The notes below the pieces were generated by a model. The model saw only the letters and a list, made by a program, of their open reading frames with translations, had not been told where the DNA came from and ran no database searches. A stretch of DNA of 64,000 nucleotides from Aurantiochytrium sp. KH105 (taxonomy: Eukaryota; Sar; Bigyra; Thraustochytrida; Thraustochytriidae), in NCBI GenBank assembly GCA_003116975.1, contig BGKB01000137.1:124001-188000 (forward strand). Reading direction: 5' to 3'. Of the stretch, positions 23,401 through 50,618 are shown piece by piece. The position numbers and the translations under genes are program-made. Each line of letters starts with the position of its first letter. Positions within the stretch are counted from its first letter, which is position 1.

Positions 23401-24014
23401 CCGAAGCCATGCAAGGGCTCGTGGCGCAATCACTGACGCTGACGCCGCTCGAGACACGGATTTCGAGGCCCAACCAGGTGATTCCATTCAAGGTGTCCTT
23501 TCATCCGCTCAAGCCCTTTTCCACGAGTGTAGATCTGTTGATCTCGAAGCGATCAGGTGGGCGCTGGCGTTTTCAGATTCGCCTCGATGCAGCAGAGCCC
23601 GTGATTGACGACGTCATTGAGGTCCAGGCCAGCTTGCATCACACAGCCTCCGTCTCGTTCCAGCTCAAGAATCAGTTCAACGTGCCTGCTCCCTTTGAAG
23701 CGTACCTTACTGTGGAGTCTGCGTATCAATTTTCGGTGTACCCGACCAATGGCGTCTTGCCTCCTGTGGACGGTCAAGAAGGATCGACGTTTGTGGTGAG
23801 TTTCACACCTACAGAGTACGGAAAGGTCATCAAAGCCAAGCTCGTCATTGTTACGGATGAGATGCAGTGGAGCTACCTTTTGCGCGGCACGCATCCGGAC
23901 TTTAAGCCTCCAGCAGGCGAGGCCAAGGTTGTGTCTCGCCCGGATACAGGGGTGCTCAAGGCGCTTCAAGATGCACAAGCGAAGCGCAAGACTCGCAGGA
24001 ACTCAGCCTTGTAA
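14460..24014 (+). CDS. CFAP47: CFAP47-like cilia- and flagella-associated protein
   Basis: Giant axonemal protein; human CFAP47 (about 3,187 residues) belongs to the central-apparatus protein set and is needed for sperm flagella. This product has 3,184 residues. It is mostly repeated ASH/MSP-type Ig-like beta domains, recognisable by turns such as LDFGTVCVNS, LDFGFVSVGR and FEPASPC. Examples are residues about 30-200, 390-500, 760-850, 880-1090 and many between 2020 and 3150. A calponin-homology domain sits at about 1825-2015 (NAWASVILQILKLF to NLLFVLYLYQNLP), as in CFAP47 and unlike hydin. A charged linker (about 530-750), a Lys/Gly/Ala-rich linker (about 2180-2210) and a Ser run near 2370 break the array. 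ATG 14460 (A at -3) is the first methionine; the frame otherwise opens with GTG. No intron is visible. Confidence 0.9.
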   Translation: MHDADKEGPALAGGLRVFPPRVCFEDVQPNVLYVLTLLLQNGASKAERIRFRHPKSNYFTLNYTATGAVAPGLEVRAEVEFCIPDGLDDKEFHDELVVMCAGHETAIPLVGQRPCPRLEIEGNGLVDLGTVVRGNTQTRFLELRNTGSLPGDFTISEELGECLSVFPKEGTIPGTSTGSTRLSERLKVEFSSDTLGSFRKSVTLEIAGQAPLTLDVCANVVDQNLELVMPANGGLVDGELAFAALHFGQKATQEIMLVNNSPVSCQYSIAFKAGTGFELYRTPVAASAESLISTQSDDAEADGLPAGFVQDIGIRDAPIRMTPTQGVLAPYTKIPLAVVFAPRPPPQAKGFRARGDQDLHSDVSFELSAVVTCVDTGQQIPLKLTARALKPLVSINRKTFKFGTCAAVDRRDIVFTIANKGEVLPIRYSINKVAFFSCKPNAGRLLPGQSQNVLVSFMPAQLGSFRNTLHVVLCDGVRVVPLTVAGECDALGSPKKIPGGPEAILADFKPEIKYVDDDEVRRQARHSKPRFKRLPPWEKKKLAMREHAIAEDLEQPADSPSVMSANQLGAEDSGDLGPDVFGGVKSYDPTYTYSTADLVRKQQHRDQYADFLIRARRSRQDRAAKKAKDAKSPRSSKNAKWREEAKKASFRPGKHRHDHDENSSDEEADDDAEARRGLEDDPINIGLDPREGLRSPRLRVPAEPEPLWLERPLDDDGAAGDGNGASGGRRRHRGKTHDENRLIKRKFKDAPTSQSEITDCRSVITPIDLAHIGVQPKQLDFGTVCVNSKSAKCLAIANDLMQNILVEICVDGVDDLSHSTPKAQVIPPGSQAGFDIIFSSSTQPAANQSNRFRKSITYIINGHHKFKYSIVAEVVPIKIALSTSCVDLRFDETNLNRSVSETVTLTNTGNASAYFSWVAAAPSSSAATSDDANSNAGNKKRGATEAPTFKIEPETDVIEPFETKDVVVTYAPVVRGEKTKNLALRVRGGYDEMLECVGHHEEPTCIFTQKKLDFGFVSVGREQTAKLDVKNTGSYVAVLFAEDAPPGISVLPETCKIPPGATATLEVRFEPASPCKLDPSKHQLRLALRGGRDLRLPLHGEAVVPVAEVLQAQTDFEGITIGSKAVQTITLSNSGDVPAVLTLDLSEHFEFEVALAPLPTASGQRRNSSFAKSTNSASASSRRKSIGGTSTTSSSSSRNEAAETESEGKNDAQALVHEDDEALDASSVGEIVDPDDLENLLRPVSAISNTRAPLGTFLEDEPAEDLAVDDIRDLDEECVYFEIQVPAKKRLHIQLIFVPKNERSHAFQLPLAIAGTSEVLQHAITGEGLRPKLLLSSTLVNFDTKVVSKDRLKKVPTYREISVTNHHDETLRWEIGTEPLSNMEAGADDQNATKFFSVKPTGGVLQPGDTCMVKVGFLPSGEEQYCVSLPIFIDEDREREYLSLELVGMGVYPKLRFDTSEVVLPTVPLGVKAKGVFYIQNDGYDSLDLRYRLPAETQRVPLAISFPEGKNIGLSRPQIPVEVTFTSRKPMSFTAKVDFVDTDGNAFGIYITGTAENCLLTAFPFVAAVRAQFDYTATASDRSVQFVPRPNAQLLLQSKKTHRESTMSLASQLDLKPPGAAESKEKPGDEAKNERKGTSKPAVDFVADASLVETASASATSVHTLVRFLNVTALQVPITDFPADLISSSGKQVFELIQSLSGKAAPGRMKAGGAKGKAAAVKKDLTKDLLMQYEALLKFLKSRGALLHDIRPEHFLPRDEYIRHRARTDPEMGLGDGAGGSSGMTMILQGSGMSSFSASNSQAHARILQQRHQLEREFPPVSTNAWASVILQILKLFVLNRVTVKQLRGLPGCTDAISPEDVRALSSSSSNIYSVPEGILLHWLSLHCSQGSNTILSSGGGGMPAADVLMPGQENPYRHNSPIVNLDTDLGSGVVLATLLASHIPTLIRPGCALASVVLEPTDETQCVANLTAVMNAMQELGLHYTRNPEDMLPTVANARDNLLFVLYLYQNLPQFVPKATIEFSCSLGSKVTKAIELRNPSSQLVSYDVQLDGSFEFSVPVRTVSIEAGETAELPVELTSRFSRPAEAILSLKPDRAAGGGSGGGPGGAPSALVFKLTSHVHSRRSIRTIKCATRAYEPLPVEVQVTNPFSQDARFVVELVQERTKEELRAPRGKAGKKRGGKAGAGAGAGLARGASKRGSGKASKRPMSREGTGTSMMSTPCNETLPDAFHCKLSTLKLRAGETATLSLQYLPFLPGEYRCQLVFVDEKVGEFLYEVIGEAARPVPLEKITFATEAKSVFSKRIALGMGNKLLEKAKTALAAVSSDGAGIEFTGRTFKNPDSVDFEVEFESPFFSGPSSVTVAAAAASSSSSSSSSGPPKASGAASSSLAGSEDRESVASTKESVLAVTNALTVDFQPQSAGVYPCYVILRSPKQIRIIELEATVSNPTVTSELDFLAPARQKIKQGIPILNTTDAVWNIQARLEGSACFTAPRSLSVSPDGGAADFTLEFAPTWVGEFSGKLILHNATTNEDMIYVLSGVGQEPLAEDHIVIECKAREKVFQAFAVSNNFGSCSDVYTTFAVESDLPHVGGDPTISVAKGASADYMLTVNPLLGGTYTGSVTFSLGPERPFLWYTVEIRATSPAPEDTLEITTFVRKAVAVEITLVNPLDHAVEFEVSLQGHGLLGEPRFVLEASEAASYELIYSPLVAGEVEGAVSFVNDMVGEVWYKLALSAQAAPPESLELFRCAVGTHIRQAVVLENPTDEAVELRAVLSNRRNFSVRPANPTLAPYAQTSVEIEYLPSSIGEEESGVVKFTSPKLGEWEFHVVGEGTMPSIMDNVEVSTSVGNSDTSSVVFRNPFQDPLQVVVEIETDGSDTLRMLLGRARQTVAPFANLMIPFSFTPLEMSEQTAKVRVHAPDRDTTWEFPIRAFAEALPHPEIFYLTTRARDALMETVELPLLGLNKVAAPEPFMHELIVPEAMQGLVAQSLTLTPLETRISRPNQVIPFKVSFHPLKPFSTSVDLLISKRSGGRWRFQIRLDAAEPVIDDVIEVQASLHHTASVSFQLKNQFNVPAPFEAYLTVESAYQFSVYPTNGVLPPVDGQEGSTFVVSFTPTEYGKVIKAKLVIVTDEMQWSYLLRGTHPDFKPPAGEAKVVSRPDTGVLKALQDAQAKRKTRRNSAL

Positions 24015-24238: not shown

Positions 24239-26995
24239 CTATGACTTCGTGTCCTCTTTCGTCTCTTCCTGTTCTTGATTCGACGTTGGTGCTGCTGGCA
24301 CTGAATGAGTGCTCTCTGACGCAATGTTTGGTTTGCTCGCATGTGATGCTCTTTTAAGGGAGGAACGAGACGCTGCAGCAGATGAAGACGACGACGCCGA
24401 CGAAGAAGAAGACCCAGAGGATGAAGACGATGCACCGGAAGAGGTGGACTCGTTGTCCGAATCATCACTCGAGTCAGACTCCTCACCAGAATCGTCGGGG
24501 CTTCGGGCTCTGAGACGACGGCCCTGACGACGGAGATGGCGGAGGTTTCTGCGGATATAATCCTTTTTGAGGCCTCTCATTTGGTTGTTGAGCGCTTCAA
24601 TTTCAAACTTGTATTCGTTCACCTTTGCGCGATGTGTTTCGAGATCCGCTTCCATTTCCTTTATCTGTCGTTGCTTGTCCTTGAGGTTTTGCTGATACAC
24701 GACAAGCTGTTCGGCCACTTCGGGGCCTGGCTGACGCGCGAGAACGTTCTTTAGTTCGACGTAGAGTTTCTCCTTCTCCTCAATCTGCTTGGCCTTGAGG
24801 GCAACCTCCTCAGTCTTTTCGATGAGCCTTACTTGGGTCGACTGAATTTTCTTGATCAGGGCGAATCGCTCTGGGTCAGAGCTCTCAAGTTTGCGCCATC
24901 GATGGACATTCAGAGGTCTCTCCATTTCGTCGGAGAGCGCCTTAACTTTGGAGCGTTCCTGGGCTATTTCACGCTCGAGGCGGATGATCTCTGTGTCAAG
25001 CTCCGGAATGCCGGAGACCTGCTCGTAGAGCTTCTTTCGCTCGCGGTGCAACACACGCACCGTACGCTGAAGACTGCGAAGATCGCCAGAGAGCGCATTA
25101 AACTGGCTTTCACCCTTGCGGAGTGCCGACATCTGCAGCTTAATTTTCTCGTACAAGGATGCCAATTCTTCATTGCGACGAATGAGCTGTGAGCCGAGAA
25201 TGTCGCGCTCGCTAATAATGGCCCGGTATTCCTTTTCTTGGCGAGCTCGCTCCTCCTCGGCCTCGCGCATGATTTGCGTCAGTTTTTGGATCTCAAACTC
25301 TTGATTGTTGATGATCTGCTCGGAGGACTGCGTCTGCTTCCGAATCTTGGTGAGCTCATTCTTGAGTTGTTCCTTTTCCTTTTCAACCTTTTGATGCGAA
25401 AAGTGTTCCTTCACCAGCGAGTGGTCTTTTGTGGTAATTTCCTCTTTGAGTTGCTCGATCTGGTGATTCATGATCTTGAATTTGCGCTTCATTTCGGCAA
25501 TCTCTTCCTGGGCCTCGATGAGGTTCTTGGAGTACAGGTTGCGATCCGAGCGCACGGCCTCGTAAAGGTTTTGCTGCTGTTTGAGCTTGCCTTCGCCCTC
25601 GGCAATGCGCTTTTGCAGCTCTGAGATTCGCGCATCCTGAAGTCGAACTTCCTCGAGTGCGTTGGCGAATCGTTGCGATTCGAGAGCGGCCTCCTTTTCA
25701 TACTTTTGGACTTCTTCTTCTAGGGCCTCGATGCCTTGCCGGTCGGTGATGGCGTCGGTTTTGTAGCCTTGAATTTCGTTCTCGAGATTCCGCTTCGTGT
25801 TGTTGTACATACTGATAAGGTCGTGGACCTGCTTGGTGCGGTCTTCGGCTTTCATCAGCGTCTTGTTGAGGACCTCGCGCTCTTTGACGAGGTCATCGAC
25901 CTGGCGCTGCAGCGTGTCGTTTTCTTTTCGCGCGACACGGATCTCACGCTCTACGGTCTGCGTTCGCTCGCGGATCTGGACGCGATGGGCCTCGGCCTTT
26001 TCGCGGAGTCCATCGGTTTCAGCAATACGCTTTTCGGCATGTGCCATCATACGTTTAACCCCATCCATTTCCTTTTTCACGGCCTTGGACTCTTTGCGCT
26101 TTACCTCGATGTCGGCCTCGCGCTTCCCTAGCTCTTCCGTAAGGAACTTGTTAATTCGCGTTTGGTCATCGAGGGCACCGGTGAGACGCTGCGTTTGCTG
26201 GAAAAGGTTGTCGTACTCATTGAGGTAGTGTTCCATTTTGGTTTTTGCAGCCTTGAGCTTGTTGTCCAGAGCGTCGATCTCCGCGTTTCCGCTGGCGACC
26301 TTGGTTTCTTTTCCGCTCAGCTCGAATTGTAGATTCTCTACCCTGGCCTTGAGCGTTCGGAGGTCCGTATCAACGCGGTCGCGACGCAATTGTGCTTCTT
26401 TGCAGCTACGTTCGTTGTCTTCGACTTGAGCACGAAGGTCGGCAATTTCATCTTCGAGTGTGACGCGTCCGGCCTCTGCTTTGGCAACCGTTTCGCTGAT
26501 AATTTGAACATCCTGGCGACTCGTCTGCAGCTTGGAGATTTTTTGCTCAAGAAGATGCTCAAGATCGACCTGTCGCTTTTGCAGTTGAGCAAGACGTTTT
26601 TCTTGCTCGGGGGTCCATCCGGGGCCGATTTCGACTTGCTCTTCAAGTTCTGCGATTGCCCTCTGCAGCTCTTCGAGCATGGTGGACTTTTCTCGATGCA
26701 GCAGCTTCTGCATGCCGATTTCTCGCTGGTTCTTTTCGATCTCGTCTTGAAGATCCTTTTTCTCCATTTGTTGAAGTTCCTCCTCGGACTTGGCGCGCTG
26801 CACTTTGTCGGACTGTGCGAGGACTTCGGCCTCGAGCTCTGCTGCCTTTTGCTGCAGCTTTTGATTGCTGTCATTCGACTTTATGAGGGCTTTCCACATT
26901 TTGTCGAACTCGTTCTTTAGCCTGTCCTGACCTTCAAGTTTGCTCCGGGCAGCGTTATAGGCCTCCTGGCAGGCCTCCATCCTCGGGTCCGCCAT
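24239..26995 (-). CDS. CFAP58: CFAP58 (CCDC147) coiled-coil flagellar protein
   Basis: Coiled-coil axonemal protein of the CFAP58 family, needed for normal flagella in animals. 918 residues are predicted (human 872), nearly all heptad-rich helix. Diagnostic stretches are LYEAVRSDRNLYSKNLIEAQ, followed by EIAEMKRKFKIMNHQIEQLKEEI, then PLNVHRWRKLESSDPERFAL and EKEKLYVELKNVLARQPGPE. These are strongly conserved from algae to mammals. After NQMRGLKKDYI there is a non-conserved tail with Arg-rich, Ser-rich and acidic blocks (about 95 residues). ATG 26995 (G at +4) precedes the conserved N-terminus; further upstream the frame opens at GTG in low-complexity sequence. The gene meets CFAP47 tail to tail with only 224 bp between the stops. 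Confidence 0.96.
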   Translation of the reverse strand: MADPRMEACQEAYNAARSKLEGQDRLKNEFDKMWKALIKSNDSNQKLQQKAAELEAEVLAQSDKVQRAKSEEELQQMEKKDLQDEIEKNQREIGMQKLLHREKSTMLEELQRAIAELEEQVEIGPGWTPEQEKRLAQLQKRQVDLEHLLEQKISKLQTSRQDVQIISETVAKAEAGRVTLEDEIADLRAQVEDNERSCKEAQLRRDRVDTDLRTLKARVENLQFELSGKETKVASGNAEIDALDNKLKAAKTKMEHYLNEYDNLFQQTQRLTGALDDQTRINKFLTEELGKREADIEVKRKESKAVKKEMDGVKRMMAHAEKRIAETDGLREKAEAHRVQIRERTQTVEREIRVARKENDTLQRQVDDLVKEREVLNKTLMKAEDRTKQVHDLISMYNNTKRNLENEIQGYKTDAITDRQGIEALEEEVQKYEKEAALESQRFANALEEVRLQDARISELQKRIAEGEGKLKQQQNLYEAVRSDRNLYSKNLIEAQEEIAEMKRKFKIMNHQIEQLKEEITTKDHSLVKEHFSHQKVEKEKEQLKNELTKIRKQTQSSEQIINNQEFEIQKLTQIMREAEEERARQEKEYRAIISERDILGSQLIRRNEELASLYEKIKLQMSALRKGESQFNALSGDLRSLQRTVRVLHRERKKLYEQVSGIPELDTEIIRLEREIAQERSKVKALSDEMERPLNVHRWRKLESSDPERFALIKKIQSTQVRLIEKTEEVALKAKQIEEKEKLYVELKNVLARQPGPEVAEQLVVYQQNLKDKQRQIKEMEADLETHRAKVNEYKFEIEALNNQMRGLKKDYIRRNLRHLRRQGRRLRARSPDDSGEESDSSDDSDNESTSSGASSSSSGSSSSSASSSSSAAASRSSLKRASHASKPNIASESTHSVPAAPTSNQEQEETKEDTKS

Positions 26996-27890
26996 GGGGC
27001 CCGTTCGTTTGGCTTTTTCTCCGTCAAAAGAGCGGAAGCTCTTGCTGGCGAGCGAGAACGCTTGCCCGCCCTTGTTTCCAGCACTTGCTTGCTTCTGCGC
27101 TTGCCTGTCTGCTCGCACCTTGTGCACGAGTCGAGCGAACGCGAAAACAAGAGGCGCGCAAGTTGTCGGTCCCACGGCAGGTCGTGGCCGTTTGCCACCT
27201 CTTGCGTTTGCCTCGCTCGACTGAGCCACGAAGAGCGCTGTAGACGGGTGTAAGCTACGACAGCAGCAGCAGCAGTAGCAGCAGTACCTGTCAGCTTGGC
27301 TAGGAGGTGAGCAGATGCCCACCTTACCTTCGTGGACCTACTGCGTTCAAGAAGCGCTGCGACAAGAGGCAGCAAGCAGACCTCCGCTCCTCCTGCAAAA
27401 AAAACCAGCGAATCGACAATTTCCTAGACTCGACCTATCAAACCGCGAATCCGCAAGCCAGCACGCCGCACGTTGACCATAAACAAACAAGTCGACCAAC
27501 CAAAAGTTAAAGCGCAAAGGGAAAATAAGGAAAGAAAGAGAGACTCTTGCGCGAGAGTGTCCTTCAAGTTCAACTTCGTAAAAGGTCTAACGGATAGGAG
27601 TTCTCTCTTCTTGGGCCACTAATGACCGTGGTAAGCCTGTCTTTCATTCCTTCGTTGATCCGATTCATGCTGCAACTCGCAGACCTGGGTCGCCGCGGGC
27701 TGCGGCGAGCGAGCGATAGGCCAGGTTAGAGTACTGGCCAATGGGCCTTCGCGACGGTGGTCAAGCAATCGCCGTTCTTCCCAGGTCGGTGTCTTGTGCG
27801 TTTGGCGATCTTGACAGCGACAGCTGCGAGGGATAGAGTAGAATAGAAGCAGCAAGCCCAGGTCGTCAAGACTCTGTGAGCAGCGCGGCG
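26996..27890. promoter_or_regulatory. Divergent spacer between CFAP58 and hydrolase genes
   Basis: About 0.9 kb between two head-to-head starts, expected to carry both promoters. It includes a short CAG-rich run near 27262-27285 and an A-rich, GC-poor patch at 27390-27560. No gene is supported. Confidence 0.45.
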
Positions 27891-35853: not shown

Positions 35854-38800
35854 ATGCGACAAAGCGCAGTAGCACCAGGCCTTGTGCCTCTACATGTCCG
35901 CCCAAGTACTACAGCAAAGGGACGACCGAAGCAAACCGTCAAAAGCAAGCTCGAGTTGGTCGGTGGTTTTTCCCGCCTCGGCCTCGACCGCGCGATGCGC
36001 GCGGGACCAGGACCGGAACCGGGACCAGGCCCCGGCGGCGCGGGAGGTCGAGGCCCAGGCGCGCGGACTGCGCCTGGGTTCGCAGCGCCCTCTCGCTCAG
36101 GCGCGATGGCGGGGCGCCAGGACGCGCCGAGGATGAGGTCGCTGCTGGCACCCGACCAGGTGGGCCGCGACGCGCGCGCCCGGACCGAGGAGGCGGCCTC
36201 GAGGACCTCGAGCGTGACGAGGCCGCGGGGCATGGACGCCAGCGGCGTCTCCGTCTCTTTCTCGGGCGCGGCCATCCCTCGCAGCCCGGCGAGCGACCTC
36301 GCCGTGGAGGCTCCATCAGGAGAATGGTCGCGGACTTCCACGACGCTCCAGGACATCCTGGGCAGCGCGGACAACGAGAACCATGGCGCCGCCGCCAACG
36401 AGGACATGTACTCGTATGGGAGCGAGCGCATGATGAGCGGGATATCGGACGACCAAGACGACGTCGCTGACGTCGTCGACGATTTCGGGGCCAATGGGGA
36501 GCCACCTTCAGAAATTGTCGAACTCGAGAATCGCCTCGCCCTGCTTCCCGTCCTCGTGAAGCAGAACAGCGATCTGCGCGGACTCTGGGACGCCGAACGA
36601 GAGCGCGCAGGAACCCTTAGCGAGGCCATTGGGCACTTACAAAGCGAAGTGCGCGCCGTATCTGCAGCAAGAGACGAAGCTCGGCTCTGGGAGGGTCTGT
36701 ATCGCTTTCGTCTTGAGCTTCATCAGCGAAGGACTTGCAGAGAAGTCATGGATCTCATACGCGCGGATCTTCCTGCTCTCTTGCAGGTGCCGTCCTGCGA
36801 GCTCATCATGGCTGACGATGCTGATTCCACAAGGCCAACCCGCCTCACGGAAGCCATCGCATTTGTACTCGAACATCGCGAGACGCTCGAGAGCGATGGA
36901 ATGCGTTTTGTTCCAATCTTTGCAGACGCGCACGGGGTGTGCGCAGTGCTTCGCATTGAGGGCGCACCTTCTCGCCAACCAGAGGCAATCGCGCAGTCGG
37001 CGTGCGAGGAAATCGGCGTTGTGCTCGCCTATTGCCTCGTGGATCGTCTCAAGGACGAGACGCTTGCGAGCGTTAACAAAGCCCTCGCAGACGCCGAACA
37101 CCGCCTCGGAAGCTCGGACGACGATATTGACCGGCGAGGAGAGGCCCTTCGTATTGGTGGCGAAGTCATTGCCGAAGCCATAGAGCAAACCTCGCTTCAC
37201 GACTCGGAAATTCATTTTATTGAGCTCTTGGAGCGAGGCATACGCACGTGCGTTCAGGCTGATCTGTGCGCGCTTCAATTCATGGACAAGCGCATTGAAG
37301 TTCAAAAAGCGTTAGCAGTGAGCACAGGTCTCCAGGTCACGCTAGGTGACCGACGCGCCGAACTCATCCTGGGCCGACGTCAACGTATCCACGGTTCCTT
37401 TGAGCCTTGGGAGCAAGCAGTAGTACTCAAGCTGGCTGAAAATGTCTGGGGCCTCTACGAGCTGTCAAAGAAGCTTGCGCAGAAAACAGCAGAGATCCAG
37501 GATCGCAAGACGGACATGCAACAAAGTCTCGAGGCTGCAGAAGCGCGGATTGACCAAATGCAATCCGCGCACAGCCGCGCGGCGCGCATCGAGGCTCTCT
37601 ATACACTGGTGAGCAGGCTTCTGGCATCTGACTCGGAAGAGAGCCTCGTCAAGATTGTCCAAGAACATGTCCCTAACGTACTTGAGGTCGCTTCCGTTCG
37701 CTTGGTGTTGCGGCAAGAACCTTCTTACAAGGACTCGTCTCCATCATCAACACAAGCGTTCCATATCCACGAAGACGCTCATCTAATTGTTGACGGGAAA
37801 CCCAACGACGAATGGGCCGACACCGTCGTCGACCTTGTGGGCTGCGCGCTCGATCAAGCTCGCAAGCGTAATCAAAATGCCGCCTCCATTGCCTCCCTGA
37901 GTGCCGCTTGCGCAAGAAGTCGTGACGACGCTCAGGCGAATGAGTCGCTTCGTCTTCGCGCTGAAGCTGAAAGTGTGCGCATCGCAGAGACGGCACGGGT
38001 TATTTTGGAAAAACTTGCGAGCCCAAAGCCACCCTCGCTCGAACAAGTTTGCCTCATGGCGCAGGAGAGCGTCAATACGGTTGTCGCACCGGACGAGCAT
38101 GCTGCTGGCCATCGCCAGTGGGTTCGAGTTCTTATTCTCGATCTCGATAGCATGGACGAGAGCAATCTTTTCGAATTGAATACAGACCAAGAGGACACGA
38201 TCAGCGCAAGAGCATCGACGCGCGAGCCTATTGCACGTGTTGTTGTGCCATCAAATCTACAAAATATCAAGGTTCGACTTGGTCAGGGACTTGTCGGTCG
38301 CGTTCTGAGCTCGGGGCGGACTCACATTGTCACTGGTGACCGCATTGCACGTGAGGAAGCCCTGGTTCGCGATCTCGATCGCCCAGACACAAGTGCGCTT
38401 CTTTGCGTGCCTATTGTCGGAAGCCGAGCTGCGGAAGCTCTAAGCCCCGCGCAGTCGAATGATGGCGATGCGCAAAGGGTTTGGGCGTCCTCGTCTGGAC
38501 TCGCTTCTGGCGTGCTTGGTTGCATTCAGGTCGCAAGAGTTGCCGCAGGCTCGAGCTTCGGCGAGCTTGACGGCAAGCTTGTTCGCATGATTGCAGGGCA
38601 TCTCGCGCGCCAGATCGAACTTGCGCGCGCACAGACACGTGCAGATAACTCCTTTACGCAGAGCGCGACGGCCCGCAGCGAGATCGCCGACTTTGCTGCC
38701 GTCCTGTGCGCGCTCGAAGTCCCCCGGTCTTCCGAGGTCTCCCTCCTGCAGTCTCACATTATCCCACTTGTCGAAAAGCTCGGATGCCGATTGCGCGTGG

Positions 38801-41800
38801 CTGAAGACGGTTCATCTCCATCAGCAGGCAAGCAAGAGCACGTTCGGCGCTTTGAGACACGCACACTTGAGTCGAGGCATCAGGGAAAGTCAGATCACGT
38901 CCTTTTGAGCTGCTCGAAGCCAACGGCGGTGTTCCATTACTTGTGTGACGTAATGCCTCTCGCTCTACGTCTCGCGGACGCTTTGGAACAGATTGGAGCC
39001 GACGCTTCTTCTTTGCGCTCTCGAGACTTGGACCTTTCACAAGTTCAAGCAGAACGTGATGAGCTCGCCTCCAACGTCGAGCGATTTCGCAAGCTTGTTG
39101 CCATCGCTGCAAGCGTGGGTGGCAGCAACGCTCCAGCGAAGACGTCAGAAACCTCTCACGCCGCCGTTGTGTCACCCGAGGAAGACCCCGTCGAGCGTCT
39201 GAGCTGGTATGTCGAAGAGCTTTTTGGATCTCAACTACATGGAATCTGGTACAGCAAGAACGCAGTACCTGCCATCTTTAAGTCTGCATGCGAGGAGGCC
39301 GTCAATGCGCCTCACTGGGCAGGAGTGCCGGCTGGCGAGGCTCATGTTCTTGTTGTCGAGGAGGACCGCGAAAGTGAAGTCCCCTTCAGTCCGGGGAGAC
39401 GTCTTCTCGGCCGAGACGACTTAGAAATTCTCATTCTTCTTGCATCATGGCTTGGACGCGCACATCAGCGATTTGCCCAAATCTCGCAGTTGCAGGTTGC
39501 ACTCCGTGACGCATCGCAGGGTCTAAGCGACACCCGCGCTGGTGCCGAGGGGGCCGCCTCATCGCTGTCCATCACTTCCGAGGCAATGCGTATGATAATT
39601 GCATGCACGGAGGTGGGTTTCCTCGAGCGGCATACCTTGGACGTGGAAACACTTCGGGATGAGCTGCCGGCTTGGATATCTCGTGGGGCACCCGAAGGCC
39701 TCTCGTGCACGCTTCTTGATAATGAGAAAGCTCTCGAGGCAGCGATTCGAGCGGGCCACGTTATCATCGAGTCTCCCTGTGAACATGAAACCGGGTTGAT
39801 GGTGTCCGTTGCCGGCGCAGAGGAGGTTCACGTCACAGCAGCCTTTGCTGTTGCTCATGTGCATGCGTTTGCACTCACACGCGCTCTGGAGGCCCAGCGG
39901 GAGAGCGCGGATCGGGAAGATTTGTCTGTTCAGCTCCATCAAAGCCGTCATCACGTCTTTTTACAAGATCTTGCACTTCGCATGGGTGCTGGGGCAAATG
40001 TTGCAGATGCTATCGGCACAGAGGGCATTCTTCGCAACCAATGCGCGGACCTCTGTGCAGAGCTCGGAGCGAGTTTCGTACACGCTTTTGAGCTAGGGCC
40101 TGGCGGCGTGCTCACCTGCCGGACGCTCCCATCGTCTTTGCAGGCTGCCATGCCCAATGTAGGAGAAAGCTGCTCCCTTGTCTTGCATCCGCCGCTCCCA
40201 GCTGATTTTCGCAAGCTGGTTGACGCGAATCCTGTGAGTCCTCATCCCATTGATGCTGGCGCTCCATGGGTGGAGCGCTGCACCCTTACGCTGGCGCACA
40301 ATGCATTTGAAAGATGCAGGCTCGTTTTTGTAGCGGGGCATATTCTGAGCGAGGGCGAGACACTCAATGCTGAGCATGTGCGAGACTTTTTGGAGCGTGC
40401 TGTTTGCCTCATTGGCAATGCCTTTGAAACGAGACACACCCTTGAAGATCTGCGAAGCGAAAAAACGCAAGCTGAGGAGGGCCTGCAGTCAGCCATCGAG
40501 GCCCACACGCGCCTCGAAGCCGCCAAGGAGGATCTCGAAAAACGCTTTTTTCAAGCAAAGGCTTTGGATGAAACCTTGTCGGCTTTGGCGAGTGCCAGCA
40601 CGGTGGAGGAGATCGCAACGCTTATTCTCGCGCATCTCGAAAGCGGCCACCCTGGGCGATGCTGTCTCTTCATTCGTCAAGACATCACGGCGTTCCAAGA
40701 ACAAGAAGGTGACGCGACTATGGTCGACTGGACGGAGCCTGCGCGTCAAACGAGCGATGATGGCTTGGTGGGCGTCTGTTCCAAATCACAAACTGTAATT
40801 TACATACGAGAGGACCTCGTTTCAGACGCGCGCTATGTATATCGAATCGATGGGGCCGGCATGGCATCGCATCCCTCAAGTCTTGTCTGCGTTCCGATTC
40901 TTGCGTCGCTTCACGCGGAAGAGAAGAAGTCGACTCTGGGCGTCATCTGCGTGGCGAATCCAGAGCGTTCCAGAATCGACAGTCTGAGCGTTCTGGCCTC
41001 AGCAAGCGCATTGGCCCTTGCAGGCCAGACCCTTCACCATGCTAAAGAAGCGGCGCAGGAAGCGTTGCGAGATGTCGAGAATGCCATGGTCGATGTGAAA
41101 CGGAGTGCGGTTACCGGCGAGGATCTAGCGCGTCTTCAGCGTCGGAGTGAGGTTATGATCAAGAAAGCTGACACGGCCATAGCCAGAGCTATTAGCGTTG
41201 CCACAAGCGGTGGCGTTGGAGAGTATGAAAAAAATAAGGACGACGTGGAGCGAAAATGCGAAAGCCAAAGAACCCCAATTATAGTAACATTGCTTGGACG
41301 CGTACTTTGCGAAATGCAAGAGCTACTTTCTTCTTGCGCAGAAGAAACAATTGCAATGATGATGCCATCCTCAATTGATAAGCGCAAAGATGTATGGTGC
41401 GTCAATCGAAAGAACCGTCAGTGGGCATTTTCACAAAGCACATTGGAGCGCAGCGCTGTCATTGCATCCCTGGAGGAAAGAGAAGTAGCTGCCGTTGCCG
41501 AGGACGACCCGCTGCATGCATGTGTTCTACGGCAAAGTACGCATCTGGCGCAAAGCCAAGAGCTCTTTGCTTGCGCGTTGCGCAATGCGGATGGCAGCGC
41601 AAACGGCCTGCTTCTCTTTTGCAATCCCCAGCCCGTAACCCGCGATCGTTTAGGATGCGAGTTCGCTCGCGCGCTTCGTCCTCTTTTGGCGCACGCTCAT
41701 TTGCGACAGGAAAACGAGCTCGCAGCAGACGCAGTACGCAAACAAAAGTCAGAAATTGCACTTGCGCAAGAAAGTCTTCGCGCGGAAACAACCTTGGCCA

Positions 41801-44800
41801 AGAACGAGGCCTCGCTGCATTCCGCACAAGCAAAATTTGGCAAGTCACTCCTCGATGCTGTCCTCAAAGGGAAGCAAGCTCTTTGCGAAATTGTGCAACA
41901 AGGATTTGTGGAGCTTTTGCACGGGCCAGATCTTTGCGCAGCACATCTTTTCCTCCCTCAAACACACACGAATCAAGACGACGAAGCGATCGATCAATCA
42001 CACCCGGCCTCATCCTCGCTGGGCCTCTTTGCGTTCACGGATAATACAGGCAAGGCAAAGAAAGCGTGCAAGGTTGTTGAGTACGTAGCATCCATGGGTC
42101 AATCGGTAAAGTCGTCGACCCGAATGACCTTGCCAGTGATCGAGGCAGAAAATGGGCGCGTCCTAGGTGTTTTGGACCTGCATGCCACGGAGGATGACCA
42201 AGCTCAAGGATTCGACAATGTTTCATCATGCTTTACAAAAAATTTGCGCGCAGGCCTCGAATGGTGTGCATTGGCCATCGAGAATGTACAATGTAGATCG
42301 AGTGACATGGCTGCGCTCGACAGATACGAGGAGCTTCTAAACGTGCGAGACCTAGAAATTGCGCGTTTGGAGGAGCACGCGCAAAGTCAGTCAAAAGCTC
42401 AGGAGGAACGCGCTCTACAACGCGACGTTTATTGGGAAGCAGTTACAAGCGCACTCGGACGCATTGCTGCAAGCACGGGGTCTGTCGACTCGCACGAAGA
42501 TCTACGTCATACGTGCCGTGCTACAGAGCGCGAGGTGGATATTATTTGTGGAGCGGAGCAGGGTAGTTGCTGTGTGGTACTGAGCTCGCAAAACGCCTCA
42601 GCGCAAGGCTTGCTTGCGGGCTGCGTCATACCCCTGCACCCCTATGGAGAGGAGACTGAGCCAGCAATTGGGTTTCTGAGCGTTCCGCTCGACGCCGAAA
42701 ACCGACGCGCCGCGGAGATGCTTGCGCCTGCGCTCGCGGCACTCTTGAGGGCAGCGGGAAGTCTCGCGAGCGCAAAAGCGGCTCTATCAGATCAAGCGTC
42801 GCGGATTGCTGTTTCGGAGGCTTCTGCACAACGTTTTGAGTCACGTCTTTCAGAACTTGAGGAAACGGCAGGGATGCAGCAAGCGAAGGAGACTCTTCTC
42901 CGTCATTTGGTATCTTGCCGTAGCATTCACGAGATCCGCGAAGCAGTCCGCGCACACGCGACAGCGTACTTTTGTCCGGGCGCGAGCAACACCTGCGTTG
43001 CGGAGTTGCACTTACAAGGTGCAAAAAACCAGATGCGGGAAGGCCTTGGCGCAACAGCATTGTCTACGGGTCAGTTTGTGTGCGCTCGTGATGTCCTCGA
43101 AGACGCTCGTTACAATCCTGATGCGGATGCACGCGTCATTTGCAAGCAGCAGGCACGGGGCCTGCTTGCGGTGCCACTTCGCTCTCAAGGGTCCAGTGTC
43201 CAAGCATTCCCGTCCAGCATGTCAGCGCGACGAGCTCCCTCGTCCATTCAACCATGGGAGCGCGATCCTCTTGGGGTTCTGATGATTTGGACCGTTGACG
43301 TTTTGAGCGCTGCGGACATGGAGCAGATGCAGGCGCGGTGCGAGTCTCTTTGTCGTGAGCTCGTGTTTGTTCTGTACCATCTGCTCGCGAAAGACCAGTT
43401 GACTCGCCGAAAGGGAATGGATGGGCCATGGGCTGGTCTGTGTCGCGAGCTCTGCGCGGATAAGACGCGCCCAGGACCGCTCAAGCGTTGCCTCGAGGAG
43501 CTTTGTGCAGTTGAGGCAAAGTGTACATTTGAGGGTATCTCTGTGGCATCACCAGATCGCGCTGGGGTTTTTCTGTACTTGCTCGAGGATAGTGCCAAGG
43601 CCCTCAAGGGAGATGCCGAGGTCGTTTGCAAGTCAAAATCACCGTACCTGGCGAGTCGCAGCCGCCGCATTGCAATTCCCTGTTCGTATCGGGATTCGAA
43701 GGGAGTTGTGCGTGTGGTGGGCGTCTTACATGTCTGCCGTGGCGGCGGCTTCGATGCTACCTCAAGTTTAGCAGCTCTGCAGCACATTGGCGAGCTCGTG
43801 GGCGCATTCATGCGGCGTGTCCTTCGCGAGCGCGCAAGCTTAGCAAAGTCGATGGCGTATGAAAAACGAGTCTCACAGCTTGAGCACCTCGCAAGTACCC
43901 GCAAGTCGTCTGCCAGCCCTGGTCGTCCAGGCACAGCGCAAGTGGGTGGAAGAGATGGCGGTTCAAGCGGGATGCTCTCGCGTGATTTGCTAGAAAAGTG
44001 CAACAAGCTCGAAGACCAGCTCATGGACGCTGAATTGAGTCTTGAACGCGCTGATCGCGACCGCGCCTCCTTGCGGACGGCCTTGCAGCACGCCGAGAAG
44101 AAGGTCGAACAATTGCGAACTGCTGTGAAGCGTGCAGATGCGCGGCAGCACGAGATTGAGACGAATGCTGCTGTCGTTCTCGAATCTGCGCGCAAGATGA
44201 AAGCAGACGCCGAAGTAAAGCGTCGCGAGTTTGAGCGCAGGCAAGCCGATATGGAGGAAGAGCGCGCGCGAGCGCAAGAGAGGTCCCTTCAAGAGCGCCA
44301 ACTTGCCCTACAAGAACGCGAAGCGGTTGAGCAAGCACGTTTGCGTGAGTCGGAGCTGCACGTTGAGCGGCCAAGACAGCGTGCTCAAAGGGTTTGTGCA
44401 AGTGACAAGAGCAGCGGCACAGGCAGAGGAAATGGTCCTGATAGCGACTGTGAGCTCTTTGATGAGTCCAAGGTGATGATTTCGGAGAACCTGTCGCGCT
44501 CGGCTTTGGCGGGAGGGCCTGCCATGACCGCCGTGGCTGCAGCCATGCGTTCTCGTCCGCTGCCCCCGCCGCATCCGAGTGGAACCCTCAAAGAATTGCA
44601 GCGTGTTTGTGAGCAAATGCGCGAGTCGCAAACTAAGCGTGCCGCATCAATTCGCGAGCTCATCAATCTCGAGCAAGTTCAACTTGATGGCGAGGCGAAA
44701 TTATCTGCATCGCGACTTCCAACCCCTTTTCAGCTGGGGACTCCTATTCAGACAGTTCCATGGTCAACTGTGAAGCGCGTGGCGCAGCGGTCGGCGCAAA

Positions 44801-44868
44801 AAGCAGTATCGCAGCAGCGCCGAGAAGGAACCAGGACAAGGCCACAGCTACAGGAAGAGCCAAAGTAG
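35854..44868 (+). CDS. Giant tandem GAF-like domain protein
   Basis: Function unknown. About 3,004 residues without a stop. From about residue 283 to 2666 it repeats roughly 14 times a unit of a long helix, an alpha/beta segment and another helix, as in GAF small-molecule sensors. Three units are clear: about 715-930 (GQGLVGRVLSSGRTHIV, LLCVPIV, LGCIQVARV); 1570-1733 (SSLVCVPILASL, LGVICVANPERS); and 2346-2513 (STGQFVCARDVLEDARYNPD, LLAVPLRSQ, PLGVLMIWT). The others are diverged, recognised by paired LxVPL/GxLxV strands and spacing. Coiled-coil linkers join the units, with a long coiled coil at about 2670-2850. No kinase, cyclase, phosphodiesterase or DNA-binding domain is visible. The first 250 residues are disordered and Gly/Pro/Arg-rich. 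In-frame ATGs near 35995 and 36105 could be the true start. Confidence 0.85.
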   Translation: MRQSAVAPGLVPLHVRPSTTAKGRPKQTVKSKLELVGGFSRLGLDRAMRAGPGPEPGPGPGGAGGRGPGARTAPGFAAPSRSGAMAGRQDAPRMRSLLAPDQVGRDARARTEEAASRTSSVTRPRGMDASGVSVSFSGAAIPRSPASDLAVEAPSGEWSRTSTTLQDILGSADNENHGAAANEDMYSYGSERMMSGISDDQDDVADVVDDFGANGEPPSEIVELENRLALLPVLVKQNSDLRGLWDAERERAGTLSEAIGHLQSEVRAVSAARDEARLWEGLYRFRLELHQRRTCREVMDLIRADLPALLQVPSCELIMADDADSTRPTRLTEAIAFVLEHRETLESDGMRFVPIFADAHGVCAVLRIEGAPSRQPEAIAQSACEEIGVVLAYCLVDRLKDETLASVNKALADAEHRLGSSDDDIDRRGEALRIGGEVIAEAIEQTSLHDSEIHFIELLERGIRTCVQADLCALQFMDKRIEVQKALAVSTGLQVTLGDRRAELILGRRQRIHGSFEPWEQAVVLKLAENVWGLYELSKKLAQKTAEIQDRKTDMQQSLEAAEARIDQMQSAHSRAARIEALYTLVSRLLASDSEESLVKIVQEHVPNVLEVASVRLVLRQEPSYKDSSPSSTQAFHIHEDAHLIVDGKPNDEWADTVVDLVGCALDQARKRNQNAASIASLSAACARSRDDAQANESLRLRAEAESVRIAETARVILEKLASPKPPSLEQVCLMAQESVNTVVAPDEHAAGHRQWVRVLILDLDSMDESNLFELNTDQEDTISARASTREPIARVVVPSNLQNIKVRLGQGLVGRVLSSGRTHIVTGDRIAREEALVRDLDRPDTSALLCVPIVGSRAAEALSPAQSNDGDAQRVWASSSGLASGVLGCIQVARVAAGSSFGELDGKLVRMIAGHLARQIELARAQTRADNSFTQSATARSEIADFAAVLCALEVPRSSEVSLLQSHIIPLVEKLGCRLRVAEDGSSPSAGKQEHVRRFETRTLESRHQGKSDHVLLSCSKPTAVFHYLCDVMPLALRLADALEQIGADASSLRSRDLDLSQVQAERDELASNVERFRKLVAIAASVGGSNAPAKTSETSHAAVVSPEEDPVERLSWYVEELFGSQLHGIWYSKNAVPAIFKSACEEAVNAPHWAGVPAGEAHVLVVEEDRESEVPFSPGRRLLGRDDLEILILLASWLGRAHQRFAQISQLQVALRDASQGLSDTRAGAEGAASSLSITSEAMRMIIACTEVGFLERHTLDVETLRDELPAWISRGAPEGLSCTLLDNEKALEAAIRAGHVIIESPCEHETGLMVSVAGAEEVHVTAAFAVAHVHAFALTRALEAQRESADREDLSVQLHQSRHHVFLQDLALRMGAGANVADAIGTEGILRNQCADLCAELGASFVHAFELGPGGVLTCRTLPSSLQAAMPNVGESCSLVLHPPLPADFRKLVDANPVSPHPIDAGAPWVERCTLTLAHNAFERCRLVFVAGHILSEGETLNAEHVRDFLERAVCLIGNAFETRHTLEDLRSEKTQAEEGLQSAIEAHTRLEAAKEDLEKRFFQAKALDETLSALASASTVEEIATLILAHLESGHPGRCCLFIRQDITAFQEQEGDATMVDWTEPARQTSDDGLVGVCSKSQTVIYIREDLVSDARYVYRIDGAGMASHPSSLVCVPILASLHAEEKKSTLGVICVANPERSRIDSLSVLASASALALAGQTLHHAKEAAQEALRDVENAMVDVKRSAVTGEDLARLQRRSEVMIKKADTAIARAISVATSGGVGEYEKNKDDVERKCESQRTPIIVTLLGRVLCEMQELLSSCAEETIAMMMPSSIDKRKDVWCVNRKNRQWAFSQSTLERSAVIASLEEREVAAVAEDDPLHACVLRQSTHLAQSQELFACALRNADGSANGLLLFCNPQPVTRDRLGCEFARALRPLLAHAHLRQENELAADAVRKQKSEIALAQESLRAETTLAKNEASLHSAQAKFGKSLLDAVLKGKQALCEIVQQGFVELLHGPDLCAAHLFLPQTHTNQDDEAIDQSHPASSSLGLFAFTDNTGKAKKACKVVEYVASMGQSVKSSTRMTLPVIEAENGRVLGVLDLHATEDDQAQGFDNVSSCFTKNLRAGLEWCALAIENVQCRSSDMAALDRYEELLNVRDLEIARLEEHAQSQSKAQEERALQRDVYWEAVTSALGRIAASTGSVDSHEDLRHTCRATEREVDIICGAEQGSCCVVLSSQNASAQGLLAGCVIPLHPYGEETEPAIGFLSVPLDAENRRAAEMLAPALAALLRAAGSLASAKAALSDQASRIAVSEASAQRFESRLSELEETAGMQQAKETLLRHLVSCRSIHEIREAVRAHATAYFCPGASNTCVAELHLQGAKNQMREGLGATALSTGQFVCARDVLEDARYNPDADARVICKQQARGLLAVPLRSQGSSVQAFPSSMSARRAPSSIQPWERDPLGVLMIWTVDVLSAADMEQMQARCESLCRELVFVLYHLLAKDQLTRRKGMDGPWAGLCRELCADKTRPGPLKRCLEELCAVEAKCTFEGISVASPDRAGVFLYLLEDSAKALKGDAEVVCKSKSPYLASRSRRIAIPCSYRDSKGVVRVVGVLHVCRGGGFDATSSLAALQHIGELVGAFMRRVLRERASLAKSMAYEKRVSQLEHLASTRKSSASPGRPGTAQVGGRDGGSSGMLSRDLLEKCNKLEDQLMDAELSLERADRDRASLRTALQHAEKKVEQLRTAVKRADARQHEIETNAAVVLESARKMKADAEVKRREFERRQADMEEERARAQERSLQERQLALQEREAVEQARLRESELHVERPRQRAQRVCASDKSSGTGRGNGPDSDCELFDESKVMISENLSRSALAGGPAMTAVAAAMRSRPLPPPHPSGTLKELQRVCEQMRESQTKRAASIRELINLEQVQLDGEAKLSASRLPTPFQLGTPIQTVPWSTVKRVAQRSAQKAVSQQRREGTRTRPQLQEEPK

Positions 44869-47489: not shown

Positions 47490-48389
47490 GATGGGCGCCT
47501 TGCCATTTGCTGGCTCGCCAGCCAGGCAGGCGGGCCTCAGCAGCAGCAACAGCAGCTGCAGCAGCGTCGGCAAGCTCGAGCGACACAGCTTGACGCTCTT
47601 GCTCTTGGGTTGGCGCGGACCTGGACCAGCTACTCGCGAAGAAACGGTGTGTACCTCGCAAAGTCTGCATTCTATGACCCCCTCTTCCCTATTTGCGGGG
47701 ATCTTGTGGGGGGCATGACACGCGGACTGGGGATGTCTCGATAATCTTGGAACGCGACAGCTATGGGCGACTGGATCCTACGTGTATGCAGCTGCAGAGC
47801 AGCTTTCGCCAGAGGAAGCATGCAGAGTGCGTTGTGGGCATTTCGTTTGGAAAGAAAGCGTTTGACTTTTCGTTCGAATCTGATCTCTAAGAGTACTGTG
47901 TCGCTTCTTTACAGTCGGGCAAAGACGGACTTGGCATGCCAACGAAGAATAGAAGAGGGGCTGCTTGCTCTGCAAGCTTGAAGCGGAAAGTCGACGTTTG
48001 TAGAAGCAGGCTAGGTCGAGTCGTGGTCGGGCTCTATGCTCTCTGCAGCGTTTTCAGGCTGCCAAGAAAAAATTGGCATAGGCCAATCTTCCCGCATGAT
48101 GCATTGTTCGATGCTCACGCGGCCCCACCTCGAAACAAGCACACCAATCCTGCGCTGCCAGCCAGCCAGCCAGCCCCTACGAAGCCTCTCCGCTCGAGAG
48201 GCTCTCGATCTGTGCCACGATGAAGAACAAGAAGATGACGAAGCCGCCGTTTGTTGCATACAAGTCCGCGGTGCTCGCCTCGCAGACCGAGCGATTGATA
48301 CATATCCCAAACCGCGGCGGCTGCCCTGGACGCGGGCGGGCGTGTGGGCGGGCGGGCGGGCGCGCGGACGGGCAGGCAGGCGGGTAGCG
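47490..48389. promoter_or_regulatory. Divergent spacer between CNBD and Rgp1 genes
   Basis: About 0.9 kb between head-to-head starts. It contains CAGC-type short repeats near 47538-47565 and 48158-48175, and a GC-rich GGGCGGGC run near 48340-48385 directly before the Rgp1 ATG. The Rgp1 frame is open through the 3' part from an ATG at 48036, but that extension is low-complexity and judged non-coding. Confidence 0.45.
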
Positions 48390-50618
48390 ATGTCGTCGTT
48401 CGCGTCGCCGGCGTCGTCCTCTCGGCGCGCCGCGGGCGCCAGCTTCCGAAGACAGGCCTCACGCCTTGGCGATGGCGTCGTGACCTCGGGCACAACGTCG
48501 GCGTCTTCGTCGGGGCCAGCGTCGGGGCTGAGCGGCTCGCAGGGAACCCAGGGCGTGGGTTTGGACGTGGTGGTCTCGCAGCGGTCGTACTTTGCAGGAG
48601 ACGTGGTGAAGTGCCGGATCTACTTTTACTTTCCCGAGACTTTGCGTGAGCCCGTGTTTTTAGAGTGGGCAAGCGCGCAGCTGCACGGGCACGTGGCCTT
48701 CGACCCGCACCTTGTCTCGCCCAAAGACGCAGAGCTCGTCGCCGAGGCCGCCGAAGGCGCTCATCTTGACTTTGAGGATCGTGAAAAGAGGCTCCGCCAG
48801 CAGCATGAGGCGAATGCGGTTTTACATAGGGCCCGGGATAGCATGCGCGTGCTTCGTCGCACGAAGTCGGAGGTTCAGGTTGGGCGCAGGGATCGCGCGA
48901 CAGGCCAGGGCGCCCCAGCAGGAACTGCTGCAGACGAAACAAGCCACGACGGTTATGAGGCGACTCTCGATTTTCTGTCGCAGGCAGCCTCGCTGCCCAC
49001 GCCCAGTATGCCGGATGTGACGCTTCTTGCGGGCAAGTACGGAAGCTGCCTCTTTTCGAGTCCACCAGAGGTATTCGCTTGTGCACACGAAGGTCGCCCC
49101 GGACGCGAAGTTGCCTTTGCTTTTGAGGCAAGATTGCCTGCAGAGTTGCCACCATCTTTTCGCGGATGCGCAGCTCGATACTTTTACGTTCTCAGCGTCG
49201 GAGCCAAGCTGGACCATCACGAGACGGCGCAGGTCTTGCATGTTCCAATCCGGATATGCTCAACGATCGATCCAGAGCCGCCCTTGCGTGGGAGTCGGGC
49301 GCGACGCACCAAATCGCGAGGCTCGACGTATTCGCGAGGCTCTTCGCAGTCGCTGGCGCAGCGACTTTCTCGCAATGACCGTGTGCGATCTTTTTCGTCC
49401 TTTCTCGTGGAGGAACACAACTTCAATGCGCGCAGCTACATGCTCGGCGAGACGCGTTTCCGGCGCAAGGCTGGACCTGGGCCCAGCGAGATGTTTAAGG
49501 TCGCGTCTGAGGACCTGCCCCTCAATGTGCGACCCGGTGCCGTCAGCCTCAAGGTTGTCGATTATGACTGCACCGGAATTGCACTGGAGGAGCGCGCAAG
49601 CCAGCACGCTCTGGCGGCCGGCGAGCGTCATAGAAGCACTAATGGTCGTTCGTCGCTAGCACATCGGGGAAGTTCGGCTGGGTCCTACAAGTCAGATCTT
49701 GACAAGGGGATTGGCGCCCGGGGTCACGGCTCAGACGACGGCAGCGCGAACGAGGCTTCGGACAGTGAGGCGGGCGAGGACGAGAACGAGGGTGAAGATG
49801 ACAATGCGAATGACGATGACGATGACGATGACGACGGCGACAACGACGACAACGACGACGACGACGACGACGAGAGCACTGCTGGCGCCGGGACACGCAT
49901 TTTTCGTATTGGGAGCGAAGCTCGACACATGGCTCTTTTGCACATGTTCCGAGATGCTGTGCGACCCGGCGACCAAGTTCTCATGTCTTTTGACTTTCGC
50001 AACGCAGACGTGAACTGCTACCAGGTCACGGTCGCGCTGGAGATCGAGGAACGCAGCAAGTGCCCCCCGTCGTTGCAAGCAGCTTTAGATCCATTGACAG
50101 ACGCAGATGGCTTTGGCATGGGTCCATGGCAGCGCGTCCTGACCTCACGGACGGTGCAAGTGGGCTTTAATTTGCAGCGCAGCGTTATTTTGACTGTGCC
50201 TACGGAGACGACGCCGGACTTTGAAACAGACTTGGTGTCGGTTCACTCTTTTTTGCGCTTTGAGTTTGTCACTGCTCGCGAGACTCCCAACGAAGGGGAT
50301 GGCGCGAATGGAAGCGAGGGCGATGGGGAGAATGAGGAATGGGTCGGCCCGGGCGCTGTTCAGGGCGGGCTTCCTGTGACCAACTCGCGCACGCAAACTT
50401 CACCGTGGCGAATTCCGCTCAAGGTGTTGCCTCCTTTTGACCGACATGCCCGGCACAAGGCGGCCGCCCGTGCCAAGCAGGTTGTAAATGCGATCGAGGG
50501 CAATAATTCTATGGGCTCTTTGTCTGCTGTGGGAAGCGAAACGTCCTACGACAGCGGAATCCTGATGTTGAGTAGCAGCACACAGGCATCCATGCTTCAT
50601 GTGCACGTGTGGTTCTAG
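48390..50618 (+). CDS. RGP1: Rgp1-family subunit of the Rab6/Ypt6 GEF complex
   Basis: Rgp1 pairs with Ric1 to form the exchange factor for Ypt6/Rab6 at the Golgi, for endosome-to-Golgi transport. The N-terminal arrestin-like half starts LDVVVSQRSYFAGDVVKCRI, then EWASAQLHGHV (WASAQxH is typical). It continues with YGSCLFSSPPEVFAC and PPSFRGCAARYFYVLSVGAKL, the best-conserved Rgp1 block. Later the frame has ARHMALLHMFRDAVRPGDQV, then FDFRNADVNCYQVTVALEIEE, from the second beta-rich half. Length 742 exceeds human RGP1 (about 391) because of a Ser-rich start and a long loop with an Asp/Glu/Asn tract. ATG 48390 lies shortly before the conserved region; an in-frame ATG at 48036 would add 118 low-complexity residues. 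The partner Ric1 is not in this window. Confidence 0.88.
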   Translation: MSSFASPASSSRRAAGASFRRQASRLGDGVVTSGTTSASSSGPASGLSGSQGTQGVGLDVVVSQRSYFAGDVVKCRIYFYFPETLREPVFLEWASAQLHGHVAFDPHLVSPKDAELVAEAAEGAHLDFEDREKRLRQQHEANAVLHRARDSMRVLRRTKSEVQVGRRDRATGQGAPAGTAADETSHDGYEATLDFLSQAASLPTPSMPDVTLLAGKYGSCLFSSPPEVFACAHEGRPGREVAFAFEARLPAELPPSFRGCAARYFYVLSVGAKLDHHETAQVLHVPIRICSTIDPEPPLRGSRARRTKSRGSTYSRGSSQSLAQRLSRNDRVRSFSSFLVEEHNFNARSYMLGETRFRRKAGPGPSEMFKVASEDLPLNVRPGAVSLKVVDYDCTGIALEERASQHALAAGERHRSTNGRSSLAHRGSSAGSYKSDLDKGIGARGHGSDDGSANEASDSEAGEDENEGEDDNANDDDDDDDDGDNDDNDDDDDDESTAGAGTRIFRIGSEARHMALLHMFRDAVRPGDQVLMSFDFRNADVNCYQVTVALEIEERSKCPPSLQAALDPLTDADGFGMGPWQRVLTSRTVQVGFNLQRSVILTVPTETTPDFETDLVSVHSFLRFEFVTARETPNEGDGANGSEGDGENEEWVGPGAVQGGLPVTNSRTQTSPWRIPLKVLPPFDRHARHKAAARAKQVVNAIEGNNSMGSLSAVGSETSYDSGILMLSSSTQASMLHVHVWF
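49770..49885 (+). repeat. GAC/GAT/AAC trinucleotide tract encoding an acidic run
   Basis: Imperfect GAY-rich trinucleotide repeat inside the Rgp1 gene, encoding an Asp/Glu/Asn tract in an exposed loop between the two conserved halves. Likely length-variable. Confidence 0.8.

Follow-up and report, generated by a model that had tools for sequence, protein, structure and literature searches.

A 3,004-residue protein of Aurantiochytrium sp. KH105 with about 14 GAF-like modules on a predicted coiled-coil spine and no detected output domain

GAF domains are ligand-binding regulators, usually present in one to a few copies per protein and joined to an effector; PDE2, PDE5, PDE6, PDE10 and PDE11 are tandem-GAF cyclic-nucleotide phosphodiesterases, and NKFDE is a motif of the cyclic-nucleotide-binding GAF domains. 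We have analysed a 64,000-nucleotide stretch of Aurantiochytrium sp. KH105 (contig BGKB01000137.1, positions 124,001 to 188,000 of the forward strand; hereafter the window), in which a gene at 35854-44868 (+) encodes a protein of 3,004 amino acids, here called the GAF-array protein. With the GAF family PF01590 this protein shares three matching stretches (E 3.6e-14) and a helix-strand ... VPL / GVLxV ... helix plan; it differs from the family in that no more than one domain scores above the cut-off by itself, its modules are for the most part compact and divergent, and no effector is attached. Its modules resemble those of the tandem-GAF phosphodiesterases and of Anabaena CyaB1 and CyaB2 in being linked by coiled-coil helices, which one source, in the part relevant here, places between tandem GAFs and describes as believed to be parallel in the eukaryotic phosphodiesterases (PMC1592074). 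In contrast to such phosphodiesterases and cyclases, in which a pair of GAFs is joined to a catalytic domain, the GAF-array protein has about 14 modules (M1 to M14), no catalytic domain of that type in scans of Pfam (E<=10) and NCBIfam (E<=1), and no NKFDE motif. Phytochromes and cyanobacteriochromes also carry a GAF on a helical spine, and are present among the structural matches to M14; however, their PAS-GAF-PHY order with a kinase or other output has no counterpart here (no PAS, PHY or kinase family in the Pfam scan of the whole protein). The axonemal rulers CCDC39 and CCDC40 are long coiled-coil rods, of the order of 100 nm, a length that the GAF-array protein may share, but the latter, taken whole, matches no chain in the PDB by sequence at E<=1, solved axoneme entries included. 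The protein is an array of GAF and coiled-coil segments, of unusual length and with no output, a variation on known GAF architecture, and we favour, at a probability of roughly 0.6, the reading that it is a long rod, with about 14 GAF-type modules borne on a chain of helices that is nearly unbroken.

The gene is a single open frame that runs from ATG to stop in one exon without an internal stop. Fused or frameshifted genes are ruled out by this one frame together with an in-frame stop just 5' of its ATG. Guanine-plus-cytosine content at codon positions 1, 2 and 3 is 0.675, 0.473 and 0.562, the ranges in five neighbour genes being 0.586-0.650, 0.359-0.516 and 0.611-0.645; the composition is compatible with coding and lies slightly off the neighbours at positions 1 and 3. 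A frame of 3,004 codons had been proposed in a sequence-only reading of the window, and its coordinates and length were exact.

Spacing along the sequence gives good support to a count of about 14 modules on a helical spine, because 14 of the 15 gaps between coiled-coil-like stretches each contain exactly one hand-called module. We drew the module limits by eye before the coiled-coil scan and called the positions of first strands by eye after it; the thresholds of the heptad scan were set before the result was looked at. The scan of the whole protein gave 16 coiled-coil-like stretches, totalling 778 residues, and the fifteenth gap, of 31 residues, falls within M10 and contains no module. No first strand of a module lay inside a coiled-coil-like stretch, and the modules followed each other at a mean spacing of 174 residues (range 123-244). 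Shuffling the whole protein 20 times gave a mean of 6.45 stretches and a maximum of 11, while the same scan found none in CFAP47 (3,214 amino acids), nine in CFAP58 and three in 15 E. coli proteins (6,804 amino acids together). This spacing shows a regular alternation of compact folded gaps with coiled-coil stretches, through which the helices may be continuous. It also agrees with the count of about 14 modules in the sequence-only reading; the long coiled coil that was said there to end the protein was found as the last stretch in Table 1, with a tail of about 200 residues after it.

GAF-type families were the sole kind above cut-off in the whole-protein Pfam scan: the PF01590 match scored 53.9 bits (cut-off 22.4), its best stretch at residues 798-921, and GAF_2 (PF13185) scored 33.3 bits. 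At E<=10 two non-GAF families were also listed, PspA below its cut-off and located in the C-terminal coiled coil, and PT-VENN at chance level; NCBIfam gave no family at E<=1. As had been claimed from the letters alone, no output domain was detected by the two scans at these thresholds. On the same scans we reject a missed enzyme, and the sequence tests revealed neither an overlooked enzymatic domain nor fewer than about six GAF folds. BLAST comparison of the protein with itself gave no internal repeat pairs at E<=1.

To assign modules individually, we cut the protein into 14 pieces and searched Pfam with each. M4 was the only module to pass the PF01590 cut-off singly, and M13 fell slightly below it (scores are in Table 1). 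M3 matched DUF484, a family of GAF type, below cut-off, TPR_IPO5 more weakly and nothing else, and the other 11 modules gave no GAF-type match when cut out; M9, among these, gave no Pfam match at all. We also scored the modules with a profile built from 16 bacterial GAF sequences, drawn from 10 of 15 plasmid loci and six E. coli GAFs. The loci L016 and L020-L023, which cover only part of the profile, were omitted from it, and as held-out positives all five scored at z 5.4-11.3. M9 stood at the top of the 14 modules (z 5.66), followed by M13 (3.50), M4 (3.46), M2 (2.05), M3 (1.82), M1 (1.60), M12 (1.54) and M11 (1.41), the remaining six being below 0.2. The 57 controls had a 95% point of 1.50 and a maximum of 4.31, reached by one CFAP47 segment, so that single z-values are no proof. 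With M4, M9 and M13 joined to the bacterial GAFs in the profile, M12 (3.24), M3 (2.97), M11 (2.85), M1 (2.16) and M2 (2.13) scored above the 95% point (1.88) of 182 controls, so that five of the 11 modules outside the profile passed. With a two-part profile, support was obtained for M3, M9, M11 and M12.

In a leave-one-out test, each module was scored against a profile of the 13 other modules and the 16 bacterial GAFs and compared with 110 control segments of 140 residues, of which 49 came from E. coli and 61 from six proteins encoded in the window; the modules themselves are 101-226 residues long. No control reached M1, M2, M4, M9, M11, M12 or M13, and only in this test did M8 and M10 come near the 5% level (counts are in Table 1). 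Leaving out the bacterial sequences made the test much weaker, with only M12 (reached by no control), M9 (by two), M10 and M13 (by five each) near the top. The hardest of the controls consisted of 200 shuffles of each module's own sequence; by this grading M2, M4, M9, M11 and M13, which no shuffle reached, are clear, M1 is good, and M12 and M3 are marginal. The scorings disagree on some modules, M3 for instance passing two of them and being marginal against its own shuffles. By these sequence comparisons we consider six modules (M1, M2, M4, M9, M11 and M13) supported as GAF-type and two more probably so, M12 with probability and M3 marginally; the leave-one-out and own-shuffle tests did not bear out GAF identity for each of the 14.

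These results divide the claims of the sequence-only reading. Of the three GAF domains it called clear (about residues 715-930, 1570-1733 and 2346-2513), the first, M4, passes Pfam alone and M13 lies just below; M9, without a Pfam match singly, is nevertheless the module nearest to the bacterial GAFs. Among the eleven modules it called diverged and GAF-like, the profile tests uphold M1, M2, M11, M12 and, marginally, M3, and do not uphold M5, M6, M7, M8, M10 or M14 individually. Its figure of about 14 GAF modules stands for roughly six to eight in the leave-one-out and own-shuffle tests and not, by sequence, for the rest, although in the model of one further module, M14, the C-terminal half is GAF-like.

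That model, made with AlphaFold for residues 2525-2661, used an alignment of the 13 sister modules, canonical GAF modules among them. Its confidence was moderate as judged from the predicted local distance difference test (pLDDT) and predicted template-modelling score (pTM) given in Table 1, with pLDDT of about 72-85 in the last third. The order of elements was helix-strand-strand-strand-helix (helices 2-11 and 17-30; strands 47-51, 81-89 and 95-104; helix 111-136). A Foldseek comparison with the PDB gave 355 matches at E<=10; the best 50 include nine named as GAF domain and nine as phytochrome or cyanobacteriochrome, mostly over 50-80 columns and at template-modelling scores of 0.23-0.35. Such a GAF-rich list for a predicted structure is suggestive, and it is no proof because the alignment contained canonical GAF modules.

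In the rod that we favour, the last helix of each module would run into a coiled coil that leads on to the helix with which the next module begins, and by analogy with the tandem-GAF phosphodiesterases the helices probably pair as a parallel dimer; a long coiled-coil dimer serving as a scaffold is the most likely form of the protein. The rod would be of the order of 100 nm in length, since 778 coiled-coil-like residues contribute 0.15 nm each. Most modules probably lack the middle of the fold that forms the ligand pocket, because the gaps that contain them are short (61-110 residues for M1, M2, M3, M5, M6, M7 and M12, compared with 124 for M9 and 129 for M13), and these compact modules would keep partners apart and offer surfaces for docking. 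M4, M9, M13 and perhaps M11 retain more of the fold and are putative binders of a small ligand. Since the protein has no output domain of its own, it would fall to partners docked along the rod to read any signal. The GAF fold would then serve as a structural repeat, like spectrin repeats or immunoglobulin (Ig) domains, and the protein would offer a test of whether GAF modules can act mechanically. The sequence-only reading had suggested a rod or scaffold built of GAF-like modules and lacking an output domain; this remains the best reading of the evidence, with GAF identity for about six to eight modules only.

Several observations weigh against this reading. M5, M6, M7, M8, M10 and M14 have no individual sequence support in the leave-one-out and own-shuffle tests, and the reversed sequence of M7 outscores M7 itself. 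The two-part profile fails for the canonical M4 and M13, as well as for M1, and taken together the eleven diverged modules reach only p = 0.064 in it. When the 14 modules alone were made into a profile and searched against the PDB, no chain matched at E<=10. None of the Foldseek matches to the M14 model reaches E<=0.001, the best GAF match being at E 0.69 over 59 columns. A 1,200-residue model (1470-2669, made with no alignment) had a mean pLDDT of 38.6 and showed canonical M13 without strands; it was not used for any fold claim. Finally, the number of coiled-coil-like stretches varies with the threshold (17, 17, 16, 14 and 10 across 0.5-0.7).

It is possible, if less probable than the rod, that the protein is mainly a coiled-coil tether of golgin- or centrosome-like kind with five to eight GAF domains, its other stretches being unrelated small alpha/beta or irregular segments. 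The six modules without individual sequence support are consistent with such a tether, and so is the regularity of the coiled-coil stretches, which exceeds that of any other feature of the protein. Yet all 14 gaps appear by eye to be of similar plan, and the model of M14, which is among these six, has a C-terminal half resembling a GAF, though its sister modules formed the alignment.

A ligand-sensing relay, in which several GAFs bind a small molecule, change the twist of the helical spine and thereby recruit or release a separate enzyme, with any scaffold role secondary, seems to us unlikely. M4, M9 and M13 do retain the central part of a GAF, with its GxGLxG-like and VPI/VPL elements, and the adjacent gene encodes a cyclic-nucleotide-binding domain. 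However, a pattern search of the protein found NKFDE intact nowhere, only its Fx3D part, once, in M4 at residue 902, and at least seven gaps, those of the compact modules listed above, leave no room for a complete GAF between the coiled coils, PF01590 having 133 positions.

That the compact modules have some other profilin-like fold (roadblock/longin, PAS or DUF484-like) is improbable. In its favour, the central part of a GAF is missing from them and the Pfam matches of M3 are only DUF484 and, weaker, TPR_IPO5; against it, the best 50 of the 355 matches to the M14 model include GAF and phytochrome chains and no roadblock or longin, and DUF484 itself is called GAF in the title of PDB entry 3e98.

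Searches for relatives gave little. PDB searches by sequence at E<=10 with M9, M4 and M13 gave one, none and three matches, all unrelated. Exact-peptide scans gave two viral and 12 prokaryote-genome pattern matches for the whole protein, and 55 and 592, respectively, for 57 residues of M4, none confirming a relative, and tblastn of M9 and M4 against plasmids found none at E<=0.01; absence of relatives in these collections says little because they are viral, prokaryote and plasmid, none eukaryotic. Judging by titles and abstract openings, none of the papers that our literature search found describes such a protein, and the search gave no paper joining a GAF domain with thraustochytrids and no flagellar or ciliary report of such a protein.

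Table 1. Features of the GAF-array protein and neighbouring genes in the window. Fractions are the leave-one-out controls (of 110) and own shuffles (of 200) that reach the module.
Feature	Residues	Coordinates	Strand	Evidence
N-terminal low-complexity Gly/Pro-rich region	1-260	35854..36633	+	by eye
M1, compact GAF-like module	276-402	36679..37059	+	0/110, 3/200
M2, compact GAF-like module	425-545	37126..37488	+	0/110, 0/200
M3, compact module	575-675	37576..37878	+	DUF484 E 0.0048 (below cut-off); 4/110, 23/200, marginal
M4, full-size GAF domain with insert	705-930	37966..38643	+	PF01590 25.3 bits; 0/110, 0/200
M5, same-plan module	938-1050	38665..39003	+	by eye; no sequence support (29/110, 165/200)
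M6, same-plan module	1070-1215 (1090-1215 in tests)	39061..39498	+	by eye; no sequence support (23/110, 48/200)
M7, module	1238-1350	39565..39903	+	by eye; 6/110, 70/200; reverse scores higher
M8, module	1365-1530	39946..40443	+	by eye; 5/110, 29/200
M9, full-size GAF domain	1560-1735	40531..41058	+	best against bacterial GAF profile; no Pfam match alone
M10, module	1775-1955 (1805-1955 in tests)	41176..41718	+	by eye; 5/110, 43/200
M11, GAF-like module with LPV / GVLDL strand pair	1990-2150	41821..42303	+	0/110, 0/200
M12, compact GAF-like module	2185-2305	42406..42768	+	0/110, 12/200
M13, full-size GAF domain	2335-2515	42856..43398	+	PF01590 20.8 bits (cut-off 22.4); 0/110, 0/200
M14, module	2525-2665	43426..43848	+	15/110, 38/200; AlphaFold pLDDT 61.7, pTM 0.54
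C-terminal coiled-coil-like stretch, then low-complexity tail	2709-2802	43978..44259	+	heptad scan
Vps39-like gene		3998-8083	-	
CFAP47-like gene		14370-24014	+	
CFAP58 gene		24239-27322	-	
ABC transporter, 1,721 amino acids		30306-35471	+	
Cyclic-nucleotide-binding protein, 803 amino acids		45162-47573	-	one PF00027 domain, E 1.6e-20
Rgp1 gene		48036-50618	+	

The CFAP47-like and CFAP58 genes, both flagellar, adjoin each other, and the GAF-array gene lies about 8.5 kilobases further, past at least two frames. Their presence indicates that the organism is a flagellate eukaryote or of recent flagellate ancestry. In eukaryotes the neighbours of a gene are weak evidence of what it does, and a flagellar role of the array is only hinted at, these two certain flagellar neighbours being its sole basis; by the same token the protein is a candidate for an unrecognised flagellar component. 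We regard as a long shot the more specific proposal of a dimeric GAF-fold ruler of about 100 nm in the flagellum, in which compact, pocket-less GAFs would fix docking intervals and three to four full-size GAFs would tune spacing or occupancy by a second messenger; if true, a sensor domain would have been turned into a mechanical scaffold repeat. Nothing points to a role in membrane traffic except the trafficking genes of the window, Vps39-like and Rgp1. The next gene, convergent with the GAF-array gene, does encode a cyclic-nucleotide-binding protein, as had been stated, and its product is presumably reminiscent of CNBD2-type sperm proteins.

The ABC transporter frame also carries a weak SMC_N coiled-coil match. 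No RNA family scored above threshold in the window. In a frame of 654 amino acids without a Pfam match, at 8120-10084 (+), a short motif of C-T-F-x-P-x-I/T-N type is seen by eye about seven times, and a frame of 838 amino acids at 61369-63885 (-) has an immunoglobulin I-set type domain, which is unusual for a protist-like genome.

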